Origin: Stenotrophomonas sp.
GTDB taxonomy: Bacteria > Pseudomonadota > Gammaproteobacteria > Xanthomonadales > Xanthomonadaceae
DNA: 10,696 bases
Assembly: GCA_003484865.1 (NCBI GenBank)
Contig: DMZT01000383.1
Coordinates: 877-11,572 of the forward strand
Direction of reading: 5' to 3'
The notes under the pieces are model-generated. The model was not told where the DNA came from. It saw only the letters and a program-made list of their open reading frames with translations, and ran no database searches. Of the stretch, positions 1,792 through 10,670 are shown in pieces. Numbering within the stretch: the first letter of the stretch is position 1; each line of letters begins with the position of its first letter. Made by a program: the position numbers and the translations under genes.

Positions 1792-1817
1792 GGAGGGGGC
1801 CGCGGGCGGTGCCCTCC
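1792..1817. terminator. Possible terminator hairpin between convergent genes
   Basis: GGAGGG (1792-1797) pairs with CCCTCC (1812-1817) around a GC-rich loop, in the short gap between two convergent genes. There is no T-run on either side, so this is only a weak candidate. The right arm touches the stop codon of the minus-strand gene. Confidence 0.3.
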
Positions 1818-2866
1818 TACTCCTTGAGAACGTCCTGTGCATCCACGATATCCACCCCCGAGACCTGCCCCAGCCAGCCATCGAACCACGGCTTGTGAGA
1901 CGCGCCGACGATGGAGAGGACCCGGGAACCGGGGTGGTCACGCACGACCTCGAGAATGTTGGCGACCATGCGCAGATTGCGGATCTCCCAGCCCTGCACC
2001 CAGATCTGGGGGTAGTGCTGCGGTGACACGGCGGCCAGCGTCGAGCGCACGTTGGACTCGGCGAGCACCTGCAGCGCCGCGGGCTCATTGACGCTGCGAT
2101 ACAGCGAGAGCAGATCGTTGGACGCGATGAAGGCCGCTTCGCGTTCCGTCATGGCATCGAACGTGGGGCCATACCCACTCCACGCCTGCTGGAGCGCCGC
2201 GCTGAACGCCTTGCGGTCGGCGATCTGGTGATTGTCACCGGTATGGTCGTCGACGGCGTACACGCGCTGCAGACCGAGCCGCGCGGCCAGGACCGCAGCG
2301 ATCTGGTAGCTCTCGTTCTTGCGCGTTTGAATCTGCTTGAGCAGCTCGACGAGGCTGCCGTCCAGGCCGTCGCCCGCGCGTCGCTCGGCCACGGGCAGCT
2401 GCAGCCACTGCACGTAGGCAGACGCCCGTTCGCCAGCGGCAAGGAACAGGGCGGCCAGTTGGCGACGCTGCGCAGGCGTGGGCGACGCCGGCCAGGTTGC
2501 GAACGTCTTGTTGACCTGCACGATCGCGGCAGGCACATCCAGCCCCGTAGCGGTCTTCGCGGTCTCCGTGCTGGCGCAGTAGTCATCGCCGTAGACCGCA
2601 GCATGGCGCTTGGCCAGGTCACACTGCTCGCCGCTGATGGCTTCGATGGTGATGTAGCCGGGCTTGAAGGCTGCGAGCCTGTCCAGCAGCGGATCCAGTG
2701 CTTTGGGATCGAAGGCCTCGTGCTCGCTGAGGTGGACGCTGCCCAGCACGAGGACGTCGGTGCGTGGGCCGACCATGTCCTTGTCCAGGTTTGCCAGGTC
2801 GATCTGCGCCTGGGCGCAGAACGGGATCAGGGCCATCACGCAGGCCGACAACACGCGTTGCTTCAT
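1817..2866 (-). CDS. Exported DUF5694-family (TraB-like) protein
   Basis: 349 residues. The N-terminus is a cleavable signal peptide (basic start, hydrophobic core to about residue 17, AQA before Gln21), so the mature protein should be periplasmic or secreted. The body starts with VLVLGSVHLSEHE, giving His45 in a G-x-x-H motif, then YITIE with Glu75. Near the C-terminus is a second G-x-x-H-like motif, VGASHKPWFDGWL (His324). Paired G-x-x-H motifs and a conserved Glu are the hallmark of the TraB/TIKI/PrgY fold, and this arrangement is what I associate with DUF5694. Some distant relatives are metal-dependent proteases; no substrate is known to me for this branch. Start: GGGGGTG lies just upstream of ATG 2866. 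It is transcribed away from the gene at 3060 and looks monocistronic. Alternative: another EreA/ChaN-like family with the same motifs. Confidence 0.8.
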   Translation of the reverse strand: MKQRVLSACVMALIPFCAQAQIDLANLDKDMVGPRTDVLVLGSVHLSEHEAFDPKALDPLLDRLAAFKPGYITIEAISGEQCDLAKRHAAVYGDDYCASTETAKTATGLDVPAAIVQVNKTFATWPASPTPAQRRQLAALFLAAGERASAYVQWLQLPVAERRAGDGLDGSLVELLKQIQTRKNESYQIAAVLAARLGLQRVYAVDDHTGDNHQIADRKAFSAALQQAWSGYGPTFDAMTEREAAFIASNDLLSLYRSVNEPAALQVLAESNVRSTLAAVSPQHYPQIWVQGWEIRNLRMVANILEVVRDHPGSRVLSIVGASHKPWFDGWLGQVSGVDIVDAQDVLKE

Positions 2867-3059
2867 GCATCACCCCCGGGGAAGTCCGTGACAGCCTTTC
2901 TAGCAGGCAGATGCGGCGCCGGCCACGTGCCGGATGGCATAGGGGTCCAAAGGCGTTGTGCGAGCGTCCTTTCCGGCTTATGGGCTCCAGCACCCAGTTC
3001 CCGATGCCGCCTACGGACAAAGATAGTAGGATTGAAGCAACCAACGGAAGGTCTTACGC

Positions 3060-3182
3060 ATGGGCAGTTTCAGTATCTACCACTGGATCATCATCGGCGG
3101 CTTGATGCTCATCCCGGTCGCCATCGCAGCGGTGATCGCCATCGTCGTCCTCAGCCTGCGAAAGAAGTCACCCAACCGCTGA
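3060..3182 (+). CDS. 40-residue single-pass membrane protein with TatA-like N-terminus
   Basis: A 40-residue ORF starts at ATG 3060 with GGAAGG about 8 bases upstream. The product opens MGSFSIYHWIII, has one long hydrophobic helix (about residues 9-33) and ends in a basic tail (LRKKSPNR), which predicts N-out/C-in insertion in the inner membrane. The opening closely resembles the start of xanthomonad TatA (MGxFSIWHW), but the amphipathic helix and the acidic tail of TatA are absent. No function is assigned. Support comes from the ribosome site, the membrane-protein composition and the position 68 bases before another membrane-protein gene on the same strand. It could be the first gene of a two-gene operon. 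Confidence 0.6.
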   Translation: MGSFSIYHWIIIGGLMLIPVAIAAVIAIVVLSLRKKSPNR

Positions 3183-3215
3183 CGAGCGCCCCCTGCCGGG
3201 TCAGAATGGCCGGCT

Positions 3216-3232
3216 CCCCGGGTGTTGCGGGG
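3216..3232 (+). other. Short GC hairpin upstream of membrane-protein gene
   Basis: CCCCG (3216-3220) and CGGGG (3228-3232) form a perfect 5-bp stem around a 7-base loop, 18 bases before ATG 3251. It lacks a T-run, so it is not a normal terminator. It may influence ribosome access to the next gene. Confidence 0.25.
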
Positions 3233-3250
3233 TGACTCAAGGGATCCGGC

Positions 3251-3814
3251 ATGGCGACAAGAAACAACACGGTCGAGTGGATCACGGGGGTGATGCTGCT
3301 CATCTTCTTTGCCATGCTGTTCGGTATCCCCAACAGCTCACCGTGGTTCGGGCTGGTGTTCGTGTACCTGATGGCGGCCGCGCTGTTCATCGTGGGCAGC
3401 ATGCTGTGGAGTGCGTTGCGCAGCCGCCGCGCAGCACTGGCATTAGGTCGCATGCCACCCACGCGCGCACTGCACACCCGCGAGGTGAAAGCGCTGGAGT
3501 GGTTCGGCCAACCCGAGCGGATCGTCTGGCGCATGCCGCGCGGCAACGTGATCGACCTGATCAAGGCGGCACGGGCCGCAGGCAGCCGTCCGGTGGTGCG
3601 CACACTGTGCGGGCCGTATCGCGTGATGGTGCGCGCCCGACATCACGAGCGACATGACTTCATCGGCGAGGTGGAGGTACTCATGCTGCCGGGGGCGGAT
3701 CGCTCCCTGCGCGACAACAACGAGGCCGACGTGTTGCTGTGCGGAACGTTCGCGGTGGTGCTTGCGTTGAATGGTGCGTGGCGGATCGACCAGGCGCCAT
3801 CGCTGTTGCGATGA
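3251..3814 (+). CDS. Conserved-type hypothetical protein with two transmembrane helices
   Basis: 187 residues, not recognised as a named family. Two hydrophobic helices (about residues 10-27 and 32-53) form a membrane hairpin. A basic stretch (RSRRAALALGR) follows and should be cytoplasmic by the positive-inside rule. The remaining 125 residues are a soluble mixed alpha/beta domain containing WFGQPERIVWRMPRGNVIDLIKAARAAG. Start: AAGGGA lies about 7 bases upstream of ATG 3251. Codon use matches the GC-rich neighbours. It follows the 40-residue membrane protein on the same strand and converges on the OsmE-like gene. Confidence 0.75.
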   Translation: MATRNNTVEWITGVMLLIFFAMLFGIPNSSPWFGLVFVYLMAAALFIVGSMLWSALRSRRAALALGRMPPTRALHTREVKALEWFGQPERIVWRMPRGNVIDLIKAARAAGSRPVVRTLCGPYRVMVRARHHERHDFIGEVEVLMLPGADRSLRDNNEADVLLCGTFAVVLALNGAWRIDQAPSLLR

Positions 3815-3830
3815 CGCGCGTGCGCATCGC
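3808..3830. terminator. Candidate terminator hairpin between convergent genes
   Basis: GCGATGACGC (3808-3817) pairs with GCGCATCGC (3822-3830): nine base pairs with one bulged A around a GCGT loop. It overlaps the stop codon of the membrane-protein gene and sits in the 28-base gap before the convergent lipoprotein gene. A moderately T-rich GTTGTCGTTC follows on the plus strand; nothing comparable is seen on the minus side. Confidence 0.42.
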
Positions 3831-3842
3831 GTTGTCGTTCAA

Positions 3843-4208
3843 TCAGTAGCGCGGCTTGATCGGCTCACTGGAATCCAGGTACCCGGCAGCGAGAGCCTTC
3901 TCGCAGGCGATATAGCCTGCGTTGACCACGCGCCCCTGCGCGTTGAAGGCCACATAGTAGGGCGAGCTGTTGCCGCGGTTGCGCAGGAGATAGTTGTAAC
4001 AGACGCCGTTGATGCCGGGGAGCACCATTGCGTCCTGCGGCCGTCCCGCGGCGCTCAGGACCGACTCGCGGCTCGCCCCCTGCTGCAGCGAACTCATCAC
4101 GACCGGATTGCCGCGGTCATATTGAAGAACGCTGGGCATGCATGCGGACAGACTCGCGCAGACACCACACGCCAGCAGGATCGCCTGGGTCATGGGGGCG
4201 GCGCTCAC
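3843..4208 (-). CDS. osmE: OsmE-like outer-membrane lipoprotein (SmpA/OmlA fold)
   Basis: 121 residues from GTG 4208. A hydrophobic signal segment ends in the lipobox LSAC with Cys23 as the lipidated residue. The mature part tracks E. coli OsmE: NPVVMSSLQQGASRESVLSAAGRP corresponds to its PVV...G-x-SR-x-x-V...AGKP. The later GVCYNYLL and YVAFNAQGRVVNAGYIAC correspond to G-x-C-x-x-Y and YFVALDDTGHVINSGYQTC. Two internal Cys are in matching places and may form a disulfide. OsmE is an osmotically induced lipoprotein of the BamE/SmpA fold; its biochemical role is not settled. The GTG start overlaps the upstream TGA (GTGA), implying translational coupling. ATG 4193 is the alternative start and keeps the lipobox. 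No clear ribosome site is seen for either start, which favours coupling. Confidence 0.78.
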   Translation of the reverse strand: MSAAPMTQAILLACGVCASLSACMPSVLQYDRGNPVVMSSLQQGASRESVLSAAGRPQDAMVLPGINGVCYNYLLRNRGNSSPYYVAFNAQGRVVNAGYIACEKALAAGYLDSSEPIKPRY

Positions 4209-5694: not shown

Positions 5695-5781
5695 GCGGTC
5701 TCGTTTTAAGCTAAGTGGTTGATTTTCTCAGGCTGTGCGACCACCTGCGCCCATCATCGTCCACCTCTTTCCACGGACAAA

Positions 5782-5800
5782 CGGTCACCGAGCGGTCACC
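5782..5800. repeat. Tandem CGGTCACC repeats just upstream of the integrase start
   Basis: CGGTCACC occurs at 5782-5789 and 5793-5800, an 11-base period, ending directly before ATG 5802. It could be an operator for autoregulation of the integrase or another arm-type site. Confidence 0.4.
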
Positions 5801-5801
5801 A

Positions 5802-7133
5802 ATGGGCGCAATGAAGGGAATGCTTACAGCGAAGGGGCTCGCCGCTCTGCCGGCGGGAGAATGGGCCTCCGATCCGGCGCCGCGCGGAGCGGGCTGCCTG
5901 GACGTTCGCAAGCTGGCAGGCGGCCAGCTGCGGTTCTACTACCGATACACCAAGGCGAACGGCCAGCGGGACCGCCTGCTGATCGGCACCGGTCTGGCAC
6001 TGACCGCGGCACGCGAGTCAGCGGCGGCGTTGTCCCGCCGGTATCAAGCCGGCGAACGCGATCTGCGCGACGCGATCGAGGCCGAGGCAGCTGCAGCAGA
6101 ACGCGCGAAGGCCGACGCCTTGGCCGAGTCGACGCGCCGCTCCGGAGCAACCCTGGGCGCGCTGATGATGGCCTACGCCCAGAGCTTGGAGGATGCCGGC
6201 AAGGTCTCCGCCGCAGCCACCCGCGCAGCCATCAGGCGCCACATCGAAGAACCGTGGCCGGCCCTGTGGGCGCGCCCAGCTTCTGAGCTCGAGTTGGATG
6301 ATCTGCTCCCAATCCTGTCCCGCATGGTGCGCGGCAAGAAGCTGCGCGAGGGCGGCAAGATCCGTTCGTACCTGCGCGCGGCCTATGCGGCGGCGATCGC
6401 GGCAAAGCAGGATGCCGCCGCTCCTGACGCACTGCGCGCGCTCAACGTGTCCAGGAATCCTGCGCGCGACCTTGCGACCCTGGACAGCGGACAGCCGCGC
6501 GACCGGGTGCTTTCGGTGGCGGAGCTTCGCGCGTACTGGCGCAGGATCGAGGCCATAACCGGACGGCAGGGCGCGCTCCTGCGCTTCCACCTGCTGACCG
6601 GCGGCCAGCGCATCGCGCAGTTGATCCGGTTGCAGTGGTCAGATCACGCTCACGACGCCGACACCGGTACCGCGTCCGTTCGCCTGCTCGACATCAAAGG
6701 CCGGCGCCGGCTCCCCCGCGTGCATCTGGTGCCCTTGCTCCCACGGATGGCTATGGATCTCGCCACCCTGCGCGGCGATGGTGACGGGCCACACCTGTTC
6801 TCGCTCACAGCCGGGAAGACGCCCGCCACCTATGACGAGCTGCGAGGAATCATGGACCCGGTCGTGGCAAACATGGTGGCCGCAGGTGAGCTGGCATCGC
6901 CGTGCACGCCGGGTGACCTGCGCCGCACGGTAGAGACGCGCCTGGCCGCGCTGGGAATGTCCGAAGAAATCCGTGGCCACCTCCAGTCCCACGGCCTGAG
7001 CGGCGTCCAGAAGCGGCATTACAACTTCTTCGAGTACGCCGCAGAGAAGCGCGCCGCTGTCGAGGCACTGTTCGAACTACTCACCGGTGCAGGTGCAACG
7101 GTGTTGCCGATGCGAAACGGCCTGCGCCGTTAG
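5802..7133 (+). CDS. int: Tyrosine recombinase / integrase (P4-like, DUF4102 N-terminus)
   Basis: 443 residues from ATG 5802; ATG 5811 or 5820 and an upstream in-frame GTG 5715 are alternatives. The N-terminal 90 residues have the DUF4102 arm-binding pattern (LDVRKLAGGQLRFYYRYTKANG...). A helical core-binding domain follows (about 120-225), then the catalytic domain. Visible catalytic residues are Arg270 (TGGQR), a probable Lys299 (DIKGRR), Arg374 (GDLRR), His397 (LQSHG) and Tyr407 (KRHYN). The usual first His of the HxxR box is Gly371 here, a substitution I recall in related xanthomonad integrases. It catalyses site-specific integration and excision by strand exchange at the tRNA core 138 bases upstream. 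The gene overlaps the convergent small gene's stop by four bases. It appears intact. Confidence 0.92.
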   Translation: MGAMKGMLTAKGLAALPAGEWASDPAPRGAGCLDVRKLAGGQLRFYYRYTKANGQRDRLLIGTGLALTAARESAAALSRRYQAGERDLRDAIEAEAAAAERAKADALAESTRRSGATLGALMMAYAQSLEDAGKVSAAATRAAIRRHIEEPWPALWARPASELELDDLLPILSRMVRGKKLREGGKIRSYLRAAYAAAIAAKQDAAAPDALRALNVSRNPARDLATLDSGQPRDRVLSVAELRAYWRRIEAITGRQGALLRFHLLTGGQRIAQLIRLQWSDHAHDADTGTASVRLLDIKGRRRLPRVHLVPLLPRMAMDLATLRGDGDGPHLFSLTAGKTPATYDELRGIMDPVVANMVAAGELASPCTPGDLRRTVETRLAALGMSEEIRGHLQSHGLSGVQKRHYNFFEYAAEKRAAVEALFELLTGAGATVLPMRNGLRR

Positions 7134-7507: not shown

Positions 7508-7513
7508 GGAGGG
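7508..7513 (+). promoter_or_regulatory. Ribosome binding site that supports a TTG start
   Basis: GGAGGG sits 4 bases before TTG 7518 and is the only strong Shine-Dalgarno sequence in this leader. The in-frame ATGs at 7494 and 7506 have no comparable site; the ATG at 7506 actually overlaps it. This site decides in favour of a product beginning Met-Thr. Confidence 0.6.
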
Positions 7514-7517
7514 CGCT

Positions 7518-8540
7518 TTGACAATCAATATTGCACTTGCGACTTACGATAGCGTCGTACTCGGATGCGACAGTCTGTCAAGCATGATGGATAGCGTGAT
7601 TTTCCCATTCAACCACGATTTTGCCCTCGATGCAGATGGCAACTTGATCACTGATGCCAACGGCAATTTCACCATTTCTCTCACAGGTGACAAAGTCACT
7701 CAGGTCGCAACCACCGTGTTTGGCGGTGTACGAAAGATGTTCTGCGTTTATGAGACAGAAGATAAAGATGGTATGTCGGTCGCTGCGGTTACCGCAGGAT
7801 TGGCAATCCTGCAAGGCGTGACAATTGCGGAACATGTCAAACGCTTCAAGCACTTGAGCAAGGCTGTCAGCTACGAGTCTGTTGCAGAAGTTGCTGATGC
7901 GTTTTTCCGATATTTCAGGGAAAAATGGGATGCGCAGTTTGCTGGATATCCCGAAGCCCAGCGGCAGTTCATGCCAACCGTACAGTTCATATTGGCTGGG
8001 TATGGTGGAACTCCGGATCGGCTACAGGTGTTTCGAATCGACGTTCAACAAGGGCGCGTCGCTGAGGAATTTGGGGCAGGTGAACACACCGGCATCTGCT
8101 GGGGCGGGATGGCCAATTACGTTGAACGGCTGACCAGGGGTGTTGACGCTAACGTTGTCTATACCGCAACCCGCCAAATTGCTGAGGCCCTTTCCGCCCA
8201 ACGGGACGCAGTGCTTGGGGAGGTCTCAGAAGCCCTTGCGACAGCCGGGGTCACACTGCCCTCCGACCTCAACTTTGACGTAACTGAACAGATTGAACCT
8301 ACGTTGCCTTGGGATGCACACCAGGCTGACATTGATTTTGGGAACCTGTCCACGCAATACGCAGTTGAGTTGGTGGAATTGCTTGTCAATACCCAATCAG
8401 GCATGCAACGATTCGCCCGCGGGATCCCTACCGTTGGTGGCCGAACGCACATTGGGGTCTTGAAGCGAGGTGAAGGCTTTACGCCCCTGAACGAACCCAA
8501 GCTCCAGCACCTCCACACGGGATACAGCCATGATTTCTAG
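7518..8540 (+). CDS. Proteasome-type Ntn hydrolase homologue, divergent and enlarged
   Basis: 340 residues from TTG 7518, preceded by GGAGGG; removal of Met would expose Thr1. Without gaps, TINIALATYDSVVLGCD places Thr1 and Asp17 exactly where HslV has Thr1/Asp17 and archaeal proteasome beta has Thr1/Glu17. After about 25 extra residues, GDKVTQV (Lys58) fits the Lys33 strand (GKKLFQI). Later, FILAGYGGTPDRLQVFRID and GRVAEEFGAGEHTGICWGG...YVERL (157-204) match the proteasome strand-turn-strand and the start of the helix that follows. GGRTHIGVLKRGEGF (306-320) matches the last core strands (GG-x-[IV]-x-[VI]-x-VI). Serine and aspartate equivalents of Ser129/Asp166 are not evident. The family hydrolyses peptides or amides with Thr1; activity here is unproven. 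Alternatively ATG 7506 would add a five-residue propeptide. Lower GC than its neighbours. The stop overlaps the next gene by 11 bases. Confidence 0.7.
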   Translation: MTINIALATYDSVVLGCDSLSSMMDSVIFPFNHDFALDADGNLITDANGNFTISLTGDKVTQVATTVFGGVRKMFCVYETEDKDGMSVAAVTAGLAILQGVTIAEHVKRFKHLSKAVSYESVAEVADAFFRYFREKWDAQFAGYPEAQRQFMPTVQFILAGYGGTPDRLQVFRIDVQQGRVAEEFGAGEHTGICWGGMANYVERLTRGVDANVVYTATRQIAEALSAQRDAVLGEVSEALATAGVTLPSDLNFDVTEQIEPTLPWDAHQADIDFGNLSTQYAVELVELLVNTQSGMQRFARGIPTVGGRTHIGVLKRGEGFTPLNEPKLQHLHTGYSHDF

Positions 8541-8739
8541 TCTTGCAATGAACAGCGGATCTCAAACCTTCAGCGAGAAGAAAGTTCGGTCCGCGCGTGC
8601 GGACGAAAGAACTGGTGCAATCCGTGATAAGGCTTCGGCTAGCGTCTCGACAGGGCGGGTAAAGACCTACGAGATTCAGGTCCGTAACGGTCGCCTAGTT
8701 GTAGCAGGAGCGATCAAGAAGGCTCCTGCCAAGACTTAA
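8530..8739 (+). CDS. Small basic protein (69 aa) coupled to the Ntn hydrolase gene
   Basis: 69 residues from ATG 8530, which overlaps the end of the upstream gene by 11 bases in another frame; ATG 8548 is an alternative. No named family is recognised. The first 45 residues are Ser/Arg/Lys-rich and probably disordered. The last 25 (KTYEIQVRNGRLVVAGAIKKAPAKT) suggest a beta hairpin with a basic tail. Net charge is strongly positive. Overlap and the shared terminator at 8763 make it an operon partner of the proteasome-like gene, so substrate, adaptor or regulator roles are conceivable; none can be chosen from the sequence. Confidence 0.6.
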   Translation: MISSLAMNSGSQTFSEKKVRSARADERTGAIRDKASASVSTGRVKTYEIQVRNGRLVVAGAIKKAPAKT

Positions 8740-8787: not shown

Positions 8788-8876
8788 GTGCTACTCGGGG
8801 CCTGATTTGCGTTGAACCCGAGCGACGTTTCAGTTGCATCGACGGGTTGCGGCGAGCACTGGTGACCGCGCGATGC

Positions 8877-8904
8877 TTGGGAGTCCTATTAGTAATTGTA
8901 CTAA
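8877..8904 (+). promoter_or_regulatory. LexA box (SOS operator) and overlapping promoter of umuDC
   Basis: TTAGTAATTGTACTAA (8889-8904) is a perfect inverted repeat, TTAGTA-N4-TACTAA. It matches exactly the TTAG-N6-TACTA LexA motif reported for Xylella and Xanthomonas. A plausible promoter overlaps it: -35 TTGGGA (8877-8882), 16-base spacer, -10 TACTAA (8899-8904). LexA binding would cover the -10 box and repress umuDC until DNA damage. Confidence 0.85.
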
Positions 8905-8953
8905 CATGCGGGCCGTCTCGAATTCTGAGACATGTCGCTCGCAGAGTACGCCC

Positions 8954-9436
8954 ATGCAGTCCCTCCCCTACCCCCATACCCTGGCCCTGCTCGTGGGCCC
9001 TGCCCTGATAGACGGCCCGGCCCAGTTCGTGCCGCTGGCTGCAGCGCGCGCCCGACTGGGCTTCCCATCGCCGGCCGACGACTTCATGGACGAGGCCATC
9101 GACCTGCATCGCCTGCTGGTGCGCAACCCGGCCGCCACCTTTCTCTACCGCGCCGATGGCTGGTCCATGAGTGGCGCCGGCGTCAGCGACGGGGACATCC
9201 TGGTGGTGGACCGGTCGGTCACTCCGCAGGCCGGTGACCTGGTCATTGCCATCTGGGACGGGAACCAGCCCACCTGTAAGGTGCTGCAGCTGTTCGAGAA
9301 CCACATGGAGCTGCATTCGGCCAACCCCGATTTCCCTCCGATCGTGCTCGAGCAGCCCACTGAGGTTGAGGTGTTCGCCGTCGTGGGGGTCGTGCGCCAG
9401 ATCAAGCGCCGGAGCGGCCATGTTCGGGCTCGTTGA
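8954..9436 (+). CDS. umuD: UmuD-like S24 peptidase subunit of DNA polymerase V
   Basis: 160 residues, against 139 in E. coli; the extra length is mostly N-terminal. ATG 8954 was chosen because it lies 50 bases after the LexA box; ATG 8906 is too close to the promoter. The S24 domain starts at GFPSPADDFMDEAIDLHRLLV, nearly identical in pattern to E. coli UmuD after its cleavage site. Catalytic Ser71 (GWSMSGAGVSDGD) and Lys109 (TCKVLQL) match Ser60 and Lys97. RecA-filament-stimulated self-cleavage should give UmuD', the active partner of UmuC. The scissile position reads Leu35-Gly36 rather than the usual Cys-Gly or Ala-Gly. It overlaps umuC by 17 bases, so the two are co-translated. Confidence 0.93.
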   Translation: MQSLPYPHTLALLVGPALIDGPAQFVPLAAARARLGFPSPADDFMDEAIDLHRLLVRNPAATFLYRADGWSMSGAGVSDGDILVVDRSVTPQAGDLVIAIWDGNQPTCKVLQLFENHMELHSANPDFPPIVLEQPTEVEVFAVVGVVRQIKRRSGHVRAR

Positions 9437-10670
9437 CGGCAACAACTTCTACGCTAGCTGCGAGCGGGTGTTCCAGCCGGCGCTGCGCGGCGTGCCGCTG
9501 GTGGTACTGAGCAACAACGACGGCTGCGCGATCGCACGCTCGGCCGAAGCCAAAGCCTTGGGCATCAAGATGGGGCAGCCGGCCCACGAGCTGAAGCATC
9601 TGGTCCGGCGGCACGGCCTGCAGATGCGATCGGCGAACTTCGGCCTCTACGGCGACATGAGCGCTCGGGTAGTTTCCATCCTGCGGGAGGCAGCGCCGCG
9701 CGTGGAGGTGTACAGCATCGATGAGAGCTTCATCGACCTCACAGGCGTGCCCCGCCGGGAGGCCTTCGCGCAGGAGCTGCGCACACGGGTGCACAGCTGG
9801 ACGGGCATACCGAACTGCATCGGCATCGGCCCGACGAAGACCCTGGCCAAGCTGGCGAACAAGGCAGCGAAGTCGACAGATGGCGTTGTCGACCTGGCTG
9901 ACCCATTGAAGCGGGACGAGCTGCTACGCCGATTTCCCGTAGAAGATCTGTGGGGCGTCGGGCGGCGCATGGCGCCCAAGCTGATACACATGGGTATAAC
10001 GACCGCCGCGGGCCTGCGCGACGCGCCGCCCGACGACATCCTTGCCACCTTCGGGGTGACCCTCGCGCGGACCCAGCGCGAGCTGCAGGGACATGCATGT
10101 ATGGGGCTGGAGGAAGTAGAACCAGACCGGCAACAGATCATGGTGAGCCGCTCCTTCGCGGATCGGGTTGCCGACCACGAGGCGATTGCCAACGCGCTGG
10201 CCACCTTTGCGATCCGGGCCTGCGAAAAGCTGCGTACCCGTGGGCTGGTGGCATCCGGTCTATGGGTATTTGCCCATTCCGACACCTTCAGGCCCGAGTT
10301 GCCCCAGCACAACGCGACGCGATCGGTAGTGCTGCCGGCGGCGACGTCGGATACAACCCTCGTGCTTGGGACCGTGAGGCAGTTGCTCCGCGGCCTGCTC
10401 AAAGACGGGATCGGCTACAAGAAGGCCGGCGTTGCGTTGCTGGACTTAGCCAAGCCCCACGACCTGCAGTCCGACCTGTTCACTCCGGCCGTTGCTGGAA
10501 ACGATGCGCTGATGGCGACCCTCGACCAGATCAATAGGAAGTTCGGGCGCGGGATGGCCGGGCTCGGCGCGTCTGGATGGAAGACAAAGCCTGTATGGGG
10601 CATGCGGCAGCACATGCTCTCGCCGAACTTCACGACCTCATTGAACGATTTGCCGCGGGTCCGCTGCTGA
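9420..10670 (+). CDS. umuC: UmuC-like catalytic subunit of DNA polymerase V (Y-family)
   Basis: 416 residues, against 422 in E. coli. Start ATG 9420 lies inside the end of umuD. The palm begins MFGLVDGNNFYASCER with Asp6 and steric-gate Tyr11. YSIDESFIDLTG gives Asp101 and Glu102, completing the metal-binding triad at the same numbers as in E. coli. IGIGPTKTLAKLANKAAK lies in the palm, and LWGVGRRMAPKL (about 178-188) is the thumb helix-hairpin-helix. The little-finger domain follows from about 240. QSDLF at 350-354 fits the beta-clamp-binding pentapeptide QL[SD]LF. With UmuD'2 it performs error-prone lesion bypass during the SOS response. All key residues are present, so it should be functional. 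No terminator is visible in the last 26 bases. Confidence 0.96.
   Translation: MFGLVDGNNFYASCERVFQPALRGVPLVVLSNNDGCAIARSAEAKALGIKMGQPAHELKHLVRRHGLQMRSANFGLYGDMSARVVSILREAAPRVEVYSIDESFIDLTGVPRREAFAQELRTRVHSWTGIPNCIGIGPTKTLAKLANKAAKSTDGVVDLADPLKRDELLRRFPVEDLWGVGRRMAPKLIHMGITTAAGLRDAPPDDILATFGVTLARTQRELQGHACMGLEEVEPDRQQIMVSRSFADRVADHEAIANALATFAIRACEKLRTRGLVASGLWVFAHSDTFRPELPQHNATRSVVLPAATSDTTLVLGTVRQLLRGLLKDGIGYKKAGVALLDLAKPHDLQSDLFTPAVAGNDALMATLDQINRKFGRGMAGLGASGWKTKPVWGMRQHMLSPNFTTSLNDLPRVRC

Follow-up and report, generated by a model that had tools for sequence, protein, structure and literature searches.

The survey of Fuchs, Alva and Lupas (2021; PMC8665760) added 22 families to the proteasome-like proteins, with limited functional clues and, in the account given there, no suggestive genomic context. 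Proteasome homologues in phages have already been published (PPH and AAH; PMC8665760), so the kind of protein considered here is known. The closest published description is that of PMI-5 (Proteasome homolog with Multiple Insertions 5; representative WP_179179973.1), a comparison made by description only. PMI-5 has an insertion at the S3/S4 site, predicted to be unstructured, and another at the H3/H4 site, is marked for Proteobacteria only and numbers 19 sequences at nr90 (PMC8665760). The hydrolase described here fits both insertion features by our own site assignment and is phage-borne, in contrast to the PMI-5 table row, which carries no phage mark; the paper describes no context that hints at a function (PMC8665760).

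The window is a 10,696-nucleotide stretch of a Stenotrophomonas sp. contig. It encodes a threonine hydrolase followed by a small companion. Our best explanation, held tentatively, is that the two form a temperate-phage module of a Thr1 hydrolase and a coupled companion, most likely acting in superinfection exclusion. As far as the literature searched shows, such a module, with its coupled companion and its temperate-phage carriage, is undescribed.

The hydrolase gene runs from TTG 7518 to a stop at 8540 (7518..8540, + strand) and encodes 340 aa, the reading frame that had been proposed, with a Shine-Dalgarno GGAGG (7508..7512, +) five bases ahead of the start. A start codon (ATG, GTG or TTG) lies immediately 5′ of the Thr codon in 21/21 loci, so a propeptide seems unnecessary, and removal of the initiator Met would expose Thr1. 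A Shine-Dalgarno-like motif (4-5 bases, within 18 nt before the start) is present in 15 of these 21 loci. Nothing above chance matched the protein in Pfam, NCBIfam, PHROGs or PADLOC, and PDB sequence searches, with the hydrolase sequence and then with its profile, gave no proteasome match. There are 185 relatives at E<=0.01; the 120 listed carry no Pfam domain and are named 'hypothetical' or 'uncharacterized', and the LESphi2 phage record labels its copy 'proteasome subunit beta'. PF00227 (Proteasome) does not match the window protein and, for 80 homologues, does not figure in the 25 families listed out of 37. Searched against the window's own genome, PF00227 detects two other genes only, HslV-like and Anbu-like, which makes the window hydrolase a third proteasome-type protein of that host. 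The Anbu-like (open frame 247 aa) and HslV-like genes were seen at G000:C353:8117-8671 and G000:C499:5918-6436.

Conservation was read from 133 retrieved homologues, and members lacking a given column begin later in the sequence. With Thr numbered 1, Thr1, Asp17 and Lys72 are codons 2, 18 and 73. Thr1 (7521..7523, +) is T in 126/126 and Asp17 (7569..7571, +) is D in 129/129 of the homologues having the column, as expected from the original prediction, and structure comparison pairs residue 2 of the model with residue 1 of Anbu and beta5 chains. The catalytic lysine had been placed at Lys58 (KVTQV, codon 59) as the equivalent of Lys33. We rejected this residue: only 5/133 homologues have Lys there, and Q (25), N (25) and H (24) are commonest. 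The invariant lysine is Lys72 (RKMF; 7734..7736, +), K in 133/133. Non-conservation of Thr1 and Lys58 had been put forward as evidence against the whole assignment; Thr1 is conserved and Lys58 is variable, the second half of that pair failing because the wrong lysine was named. In profile alignments Lys72 falls on the lysine of Anbu and, in a separate alignment, on that of HslV, with weak overall scores (probability 2.5 for HslV and 8.3 for Anbu; 0.2 and 0.0 in global mode). The HslV and Anbu profiles score only 0.3 when compared with each other, so the comparison is insensitive, and it was used for the lysine register alone. Gly93 (7797..7799, +; residue 94 counting Met) is G in 132/133 and is the probable equivalent of the oxyanion-hole Gly47, sitting at the end of strand 87-94, ahead of the helix starting at 103 (DSSP of the model). 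By alignment, the Asp17, Lys33 and Gly47 equivalents are all present in the hydrolase.

The predicted structure supports the proposed alpha-beta-beta-alpha fold of proteasome-beta/HslV type. Structurally it comes closest to Anbu and 20S beta subunits, and the N-terminal Thr and Asp17 are invariant. The motifs FILAGYGG...VFRID, EEFGAGEH and GGRTHIGV, said to follow this fold in order, are all present; the first and last fall on predicted core strands. BFVD holds phage proteins with the same fold, the best being A0A8S5LJV3 (219 aa, E 1.1e-7). The model has helices at 103-116 and 122-140, predicted to be H1 and H2, and no helix beyond residue 299. Asp17 and Lys72 have 54 residues between them, against 15 in proteasome numbering. 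Ahead of the catalytic Lys lies an insertion of D..GN repeats (residues 29-59; 7602..7694, +; DSSP of the model), which by our own reading would occupy an S3/S4-type site. A second insertion (residues 243-278; 8244..8351, +; DSSP of the model) separates the long helix 211-242 from helix 279-299 and would, again by our reading, be the H3/H4 site of the PMC8665760 scheme. In that scheme connectase, PMI-5 and PMI-6 carry insertions at S3/S4 and PMI-2 to PMI-6 at H3/H4, and its authors state that H3/H4 insertions could block double-ring layering (PMC8665760). An insertion ahead of the catalytic lysine and another separating H3 from H4 both speak against the usual ATPase-linked double-ring barrel, and we infer a monomer or open assembly.

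The hydrolase shares with HslV (ClpQ) the core fold and the order Thr1/Asp17/Lys, but is about twice as long, has extra insertions and has no HslU found beside it. Anbu, of about 240 residues against 340, ends in a long C-terminal helix H5 that the hydrolase model lacks; the hydrolase is also mobile and unmatched by PF00227. PPH and AAH are likewise proteasome-like proteins carried by phages, but PPH has about 140 residues and no H2, whereas the hydrolase has 340 residues, H1 and H2, and two insertions (PMC8665760). Group I proteins are described as compact and without insertions (PMC8665760), unlike the hydrolase. GPH (representative WP_152342571.1) is a less likely family, with 159 published nr90 members against at least 25 NCBI-sourced clusters, by hand count, among the 133 listed here. 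The 156-aa 'proteasome subunit beta' near the terminase of phage AH14a (PMC4936722) probably belongs to a different, PPH-like family.

A general compartmental protease of HslV or Anbu type, degrading damaged or host proteins with a host unfoldase or with none, is unlikely. Such a protease would suit the best structural matches, and one relative, 39% identical, has an AAA_16 ATPase-domain protein about 2.7 kb upstream (L046, 4133-5338). However, the H3/H4 insertion could prevent double-ring layers (PMC8665760). A Pfam scan of 10 window ORFs found no ATPase domain, in line with the absence of an adjacent ATPase noted originally, and PF00227 finds the HslV-like and Anbu-like genome copies but not the window hydrolase. 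The hydrolase is, moreover, rare and mobile.

The companion ORF (8530-8739, +; 69 aa) overlaps the hydrolase stop by 11 nt. An ATG at the identical 11-nt overlap opens an ORF of 61-69 codons in 40 of 41 locus rows having the hydrolase stop; these rows partly duplicate one another and contain 21 distinct companion proteins. The sole exception is the frameshifted L016. L032, a further family member, has a same-frame ORF with an 8-nt overlap, and L104 duplicates L012. Among 20 of the 41 rows, hand-picked with near pairs kept, 20/20 companion ORFs have 58-72 codons against 1.2 expected under a Markov null (3.2 expected at 60 codons or more). Substitutions at codon positions 1/2/3 number 12/3/33 (window-L002), 1/1/13 (L006-L008), 2/5/24 (L046-L047) and 6/3/17 (L048-L049), 18/10/38, 13/8/30, 10/10/22 and 10/9/23 in gapped pairs, and 4/3/7, a weak third-position bias, in L009-L010. 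The third-position bias in most pairs indicates that the companion is a real coding gene overlapping the hydrolase. No companion is annotated in any of the four phage records opened (LESphi2, LPPA33, BR200a and CF34a).

The companion diverges rapidly, only Met1 and Gly29 being invariant among 19 aligned members, and its profile retrieved 7 proteins from the protein database. Companion and hydrolase identities correlate weakly (Spearman 0.21, p 0.028, 105 pairs). The protein is probably largely disordered. A proposal that its C-terminus copies the last hairpin of the hydrolase found no support, with a profile probability of 0.3% and p values of 0.08 to 0.98 for 15 pairs compared with shuffles. 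We rejected P0097, the Rhodanobacter locus L016, as a natural hydrolase-companion fusion. After GIPTVG, towards the 3′ end of the hydrolase gene, a frameshift carries translation over into the frame of the companion to give a 402-aa product, which is for that reason excluded as interaction evidence; the P0097 cluster comprises 8 listed contigs. Its predicted fold is uninformative on docking: residues 304-368 have pLDDT <50 and the companion end forms a hairpin at 383-395 (block means 82 and 66), a placement that may arise because the C-terminus of the companion was aligned in the columns of the hydrolase C-terminus. The C-terminal tail of the hydrolase itself (329-340; 8502-8537) is highly conserved (H331, G335) yet predicted to be unordered (pLDDT <50), and might be a putative binding segment; its last codons also contain the companion start.

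The window companion carries the motif DERTGAI (8602..8622, +). The form [DE]R[ST]G occurs in 12 of the 21 distinct companions and [DE]R[STA]G in 13; the Halomonas-type, L046-L049 and L053 companions do not have [DE]R[ST]G in that form. A short motif of this sort raises the prospect of a connectase-like transpeptidase, in which Thr1 would cut the companion at the motif and join the piece to a target, making the companion a tag and not an inhibitor. We regard this as more doubtful than general proteolysis. Connectase recognises a short motif, KDPGA, and uses Thr1 (PMC11745163), and the hydrolase shares its N-terminal Thr and an insertion near the active site, in our reading at the S3/S4 site that connectase uses; the substrate would be the small coupled companion, whose short motif contains RSG in many members. 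But connectase is archaeal, lacks H1 and H2 and has a two-helical S3/S4 insertion, while H1 and H2 are predicted in the hydrolase and its inserted segment is not two helices. The [DE]R[ST]G motif, moreover, is not universal among companions. Connectase is a monomeric enzyme, as the hydrolase may be.

The original prediction also drew attention to the neighbours of the hydrolase, an integrase and an SOS operon. Both are present, but the SOS pair does not accompany the hydrolase consistently. UmuD- and UmuC-like frames lie at 8834-10670, downstream of the hydrolase pair, with a LexA-type palindrome, TTAGTAATTGTACTAA, at 8889..8904, close to the start of the umuDC pair. The palindrome is a perfect TTAGTA-N4-TACTAA, which we take to fit the Xanthomonas-type LexA consensus. 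In a comparison of 20 sequences, the umuC-like cluster was confined to the window, its copy L011 from the same genome and the Stenotrophomonas proviruses L001 and L002, which places the SOS pair outside the module. On sequence evidence, the constant genetic partner of the hydrolase is the companion.

The available records support carriage of the module mainly by temperate phages, and the mobile element first suspected is thus a phage, as seen in phage records, provirus loci and IMG/VR. The hydrolase is found in 16 of 50,697 phage records, all from Pseudomonas, in none of 72,556 plasmids and at 22 IMG/VR loci. It is rare in hosts: 2/91 genomes of the window's genus, 2/198 of the family and 1/369 of the class, each count including the window's own genome. 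Provirus record G001 has an identical hydrolase and a tape-measure gene. The next upstream gene in the window, on the same strand, is a phage-type integrase (5715..7133, +; phrog_1 integrase, E 1.8e-21), and an integrase is also upstream of the hydrolase in L004 and L018. A CI-like repressor gene precedes the hydrolase by 57 nt in L003 and by 21 nt in L047, and lambda rexAB similarly lies after cI. Lambda rex and P22 sie are prophage accessory genes too; the likeness is of position only, and no sequence relation is claimed. Tail-fibre genes lie within several kb in L012 and L017. The hydrolase stands between the integrase and convergent tail-side genes in BR200a, and the LESphi2 annotation ends with it, opposite in direction to the tail genes, with the integrase at the other end. 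The scanned neighbours in L014 and L016 matched no phage or other family.

Phage CF34a lacks the hydrolase. The flanks compared are identical at 100% of 389 nt and 99.7% of 381 nt, other DNA has taken the place of the hydrolase, and the companion survives only as a remnant that lacks a start codon. A swappable accessory gene ('moron') shows this pattern. The replacement, about 1 kb, occupies 2990-4004 of the CF34a locus (L101), with the integrase side on one flank and the tail side on the other. A tRNA-like 3′ end was seen by eye in this DNA, which may mark a swap hotspot.

A lytic-cycle phage protein, cutting for example host or capsid proteins during virion production, is as improbable as the transpeptidase. 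The gene is phage-encoded, and an antirepressor-like gene lies downstream of it in L015 and L018. Against this, the hydrolase opposes the tail genes at the LESphi2 prophage end, lies behind a repressor in two phages, has given way to other DNA in CF34a although the flanks are near-identical, and adjoins defence-type genes in L013. A toxin-antitoxin-like pair, in which the companion would restrain a toxic hydrolase and so stabilise the prophage, would suit the tight coupling and co-occurrence of the two genes and the loss of the companion start codon in CF34a where the hydrolase is gone, but it is just as doubtful, since the hydrolase comes first in gene order and the companion matches no recognised antitoxin family in Pfam, NCBIfam, PHROGs or PADLOC (AbrB-like, sub-threshold, E 0.086).

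The phenotype of LESphi2, which carries the hydrolase-companion module, bears on superinfection exclusion. PAO1 made lysogenic for LESphi2 resists LESphi3 (eop <1e-9), and LESphi4 plates on it at 0.017. In the opposite direction, LESphi2 itself plates at 0.91 on lysogens of LESphi3 and at 1.09 on those of LESphi4 (James et al. 2012, PMC3544612). LESphi3 lysogens also lower LESphi4 plating, to 0.37, and James et al. liken LESphi2 exclusion to genes such as rex and sie (PMC3544612). LESphi3 is present in our phage collection and is not among the 16 hydrolase-positive records. A different gene could account for the exclusion of other phages by LESphi2, as could the repressor in the case of LESphi3. 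Among the literature matches listed, no report of a phage proteasome-type gene as an exclusion factor was found. The overlapping exclusion genes of Fc02 are described as different proteins (PMC9936078).

Neighbours of defence type occur in only 2 of 17 loci, whose neighbours were scanned in part. In the Luteibacter locus L013 (11486-19981), the candidate defence protein PDC-S60 (PADLOC, E 1.6e-51) lies beside the hydrolase pair, together with a ThiF/DUF6791 E1-like gene and an ORF with an HELGH motif. Seven neighbouring ORFs scanned there, two of them with PHROGs, gave no phage-specific family; one PHROGs match came through a kinase domain. In L017 a TIR-domain protein (Pfam) lies about 1 kb downstream of the hydrolase pair and has no PADLOC match. 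Position, defence-type neighbours and the LESphi2 phenotype together favour, without proving, lysogen-expressed exclusion.

The mechanism we infer, from lysogen expression and catalysis to the companion's role, non-ring assembly and exclusion, would run as follows. The module would be expressed from the prophage, in several phages from a position beside the integrase or behind a CI-like repressor. Once the start Met is removed, Thr1, aided by Asp17 and Lys72, would attack a peptide bond, the hydrolase acting as a monomer or open assembly on a specific substrate. Companion translation would begin by translational coupling inside the last codons of the hydrolase, and the companion may be its dedicated inhibitor, adaptor or substrate. 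Phage entry would then free the hydrolase, or direct it, to cleave a protein of the phage or of the host. A narrower form of the exclusion reading, in which the ring- and ATPase-free threonine enzyme acts on its coupled 61-69-residue partner at the RSG-type motif, by cleavage or transfer to a target, and so aborts infection by a competing phage, is the most doubtful of the readings considered here.

The temperate-phage location and dedicated coupled protein of this large proteasome-like family member make function testable by a two-gene experiment. The module is a candidate cause of the one-way exclusion seen with LESphi2, for which PMC3544612 names no gene. If the companion is a substrate, it would add to the ways of obtaining motif-specific Thr1 proteases or ligases. 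Elsewhere in the window, at 1817-2866 (-), a protein matches DUF5694 (E 7.7e-21) and, weakly, the ChaN/Tiki type, and the ORF adjoining it resembles, by eye, a TonB-dependent receptor.
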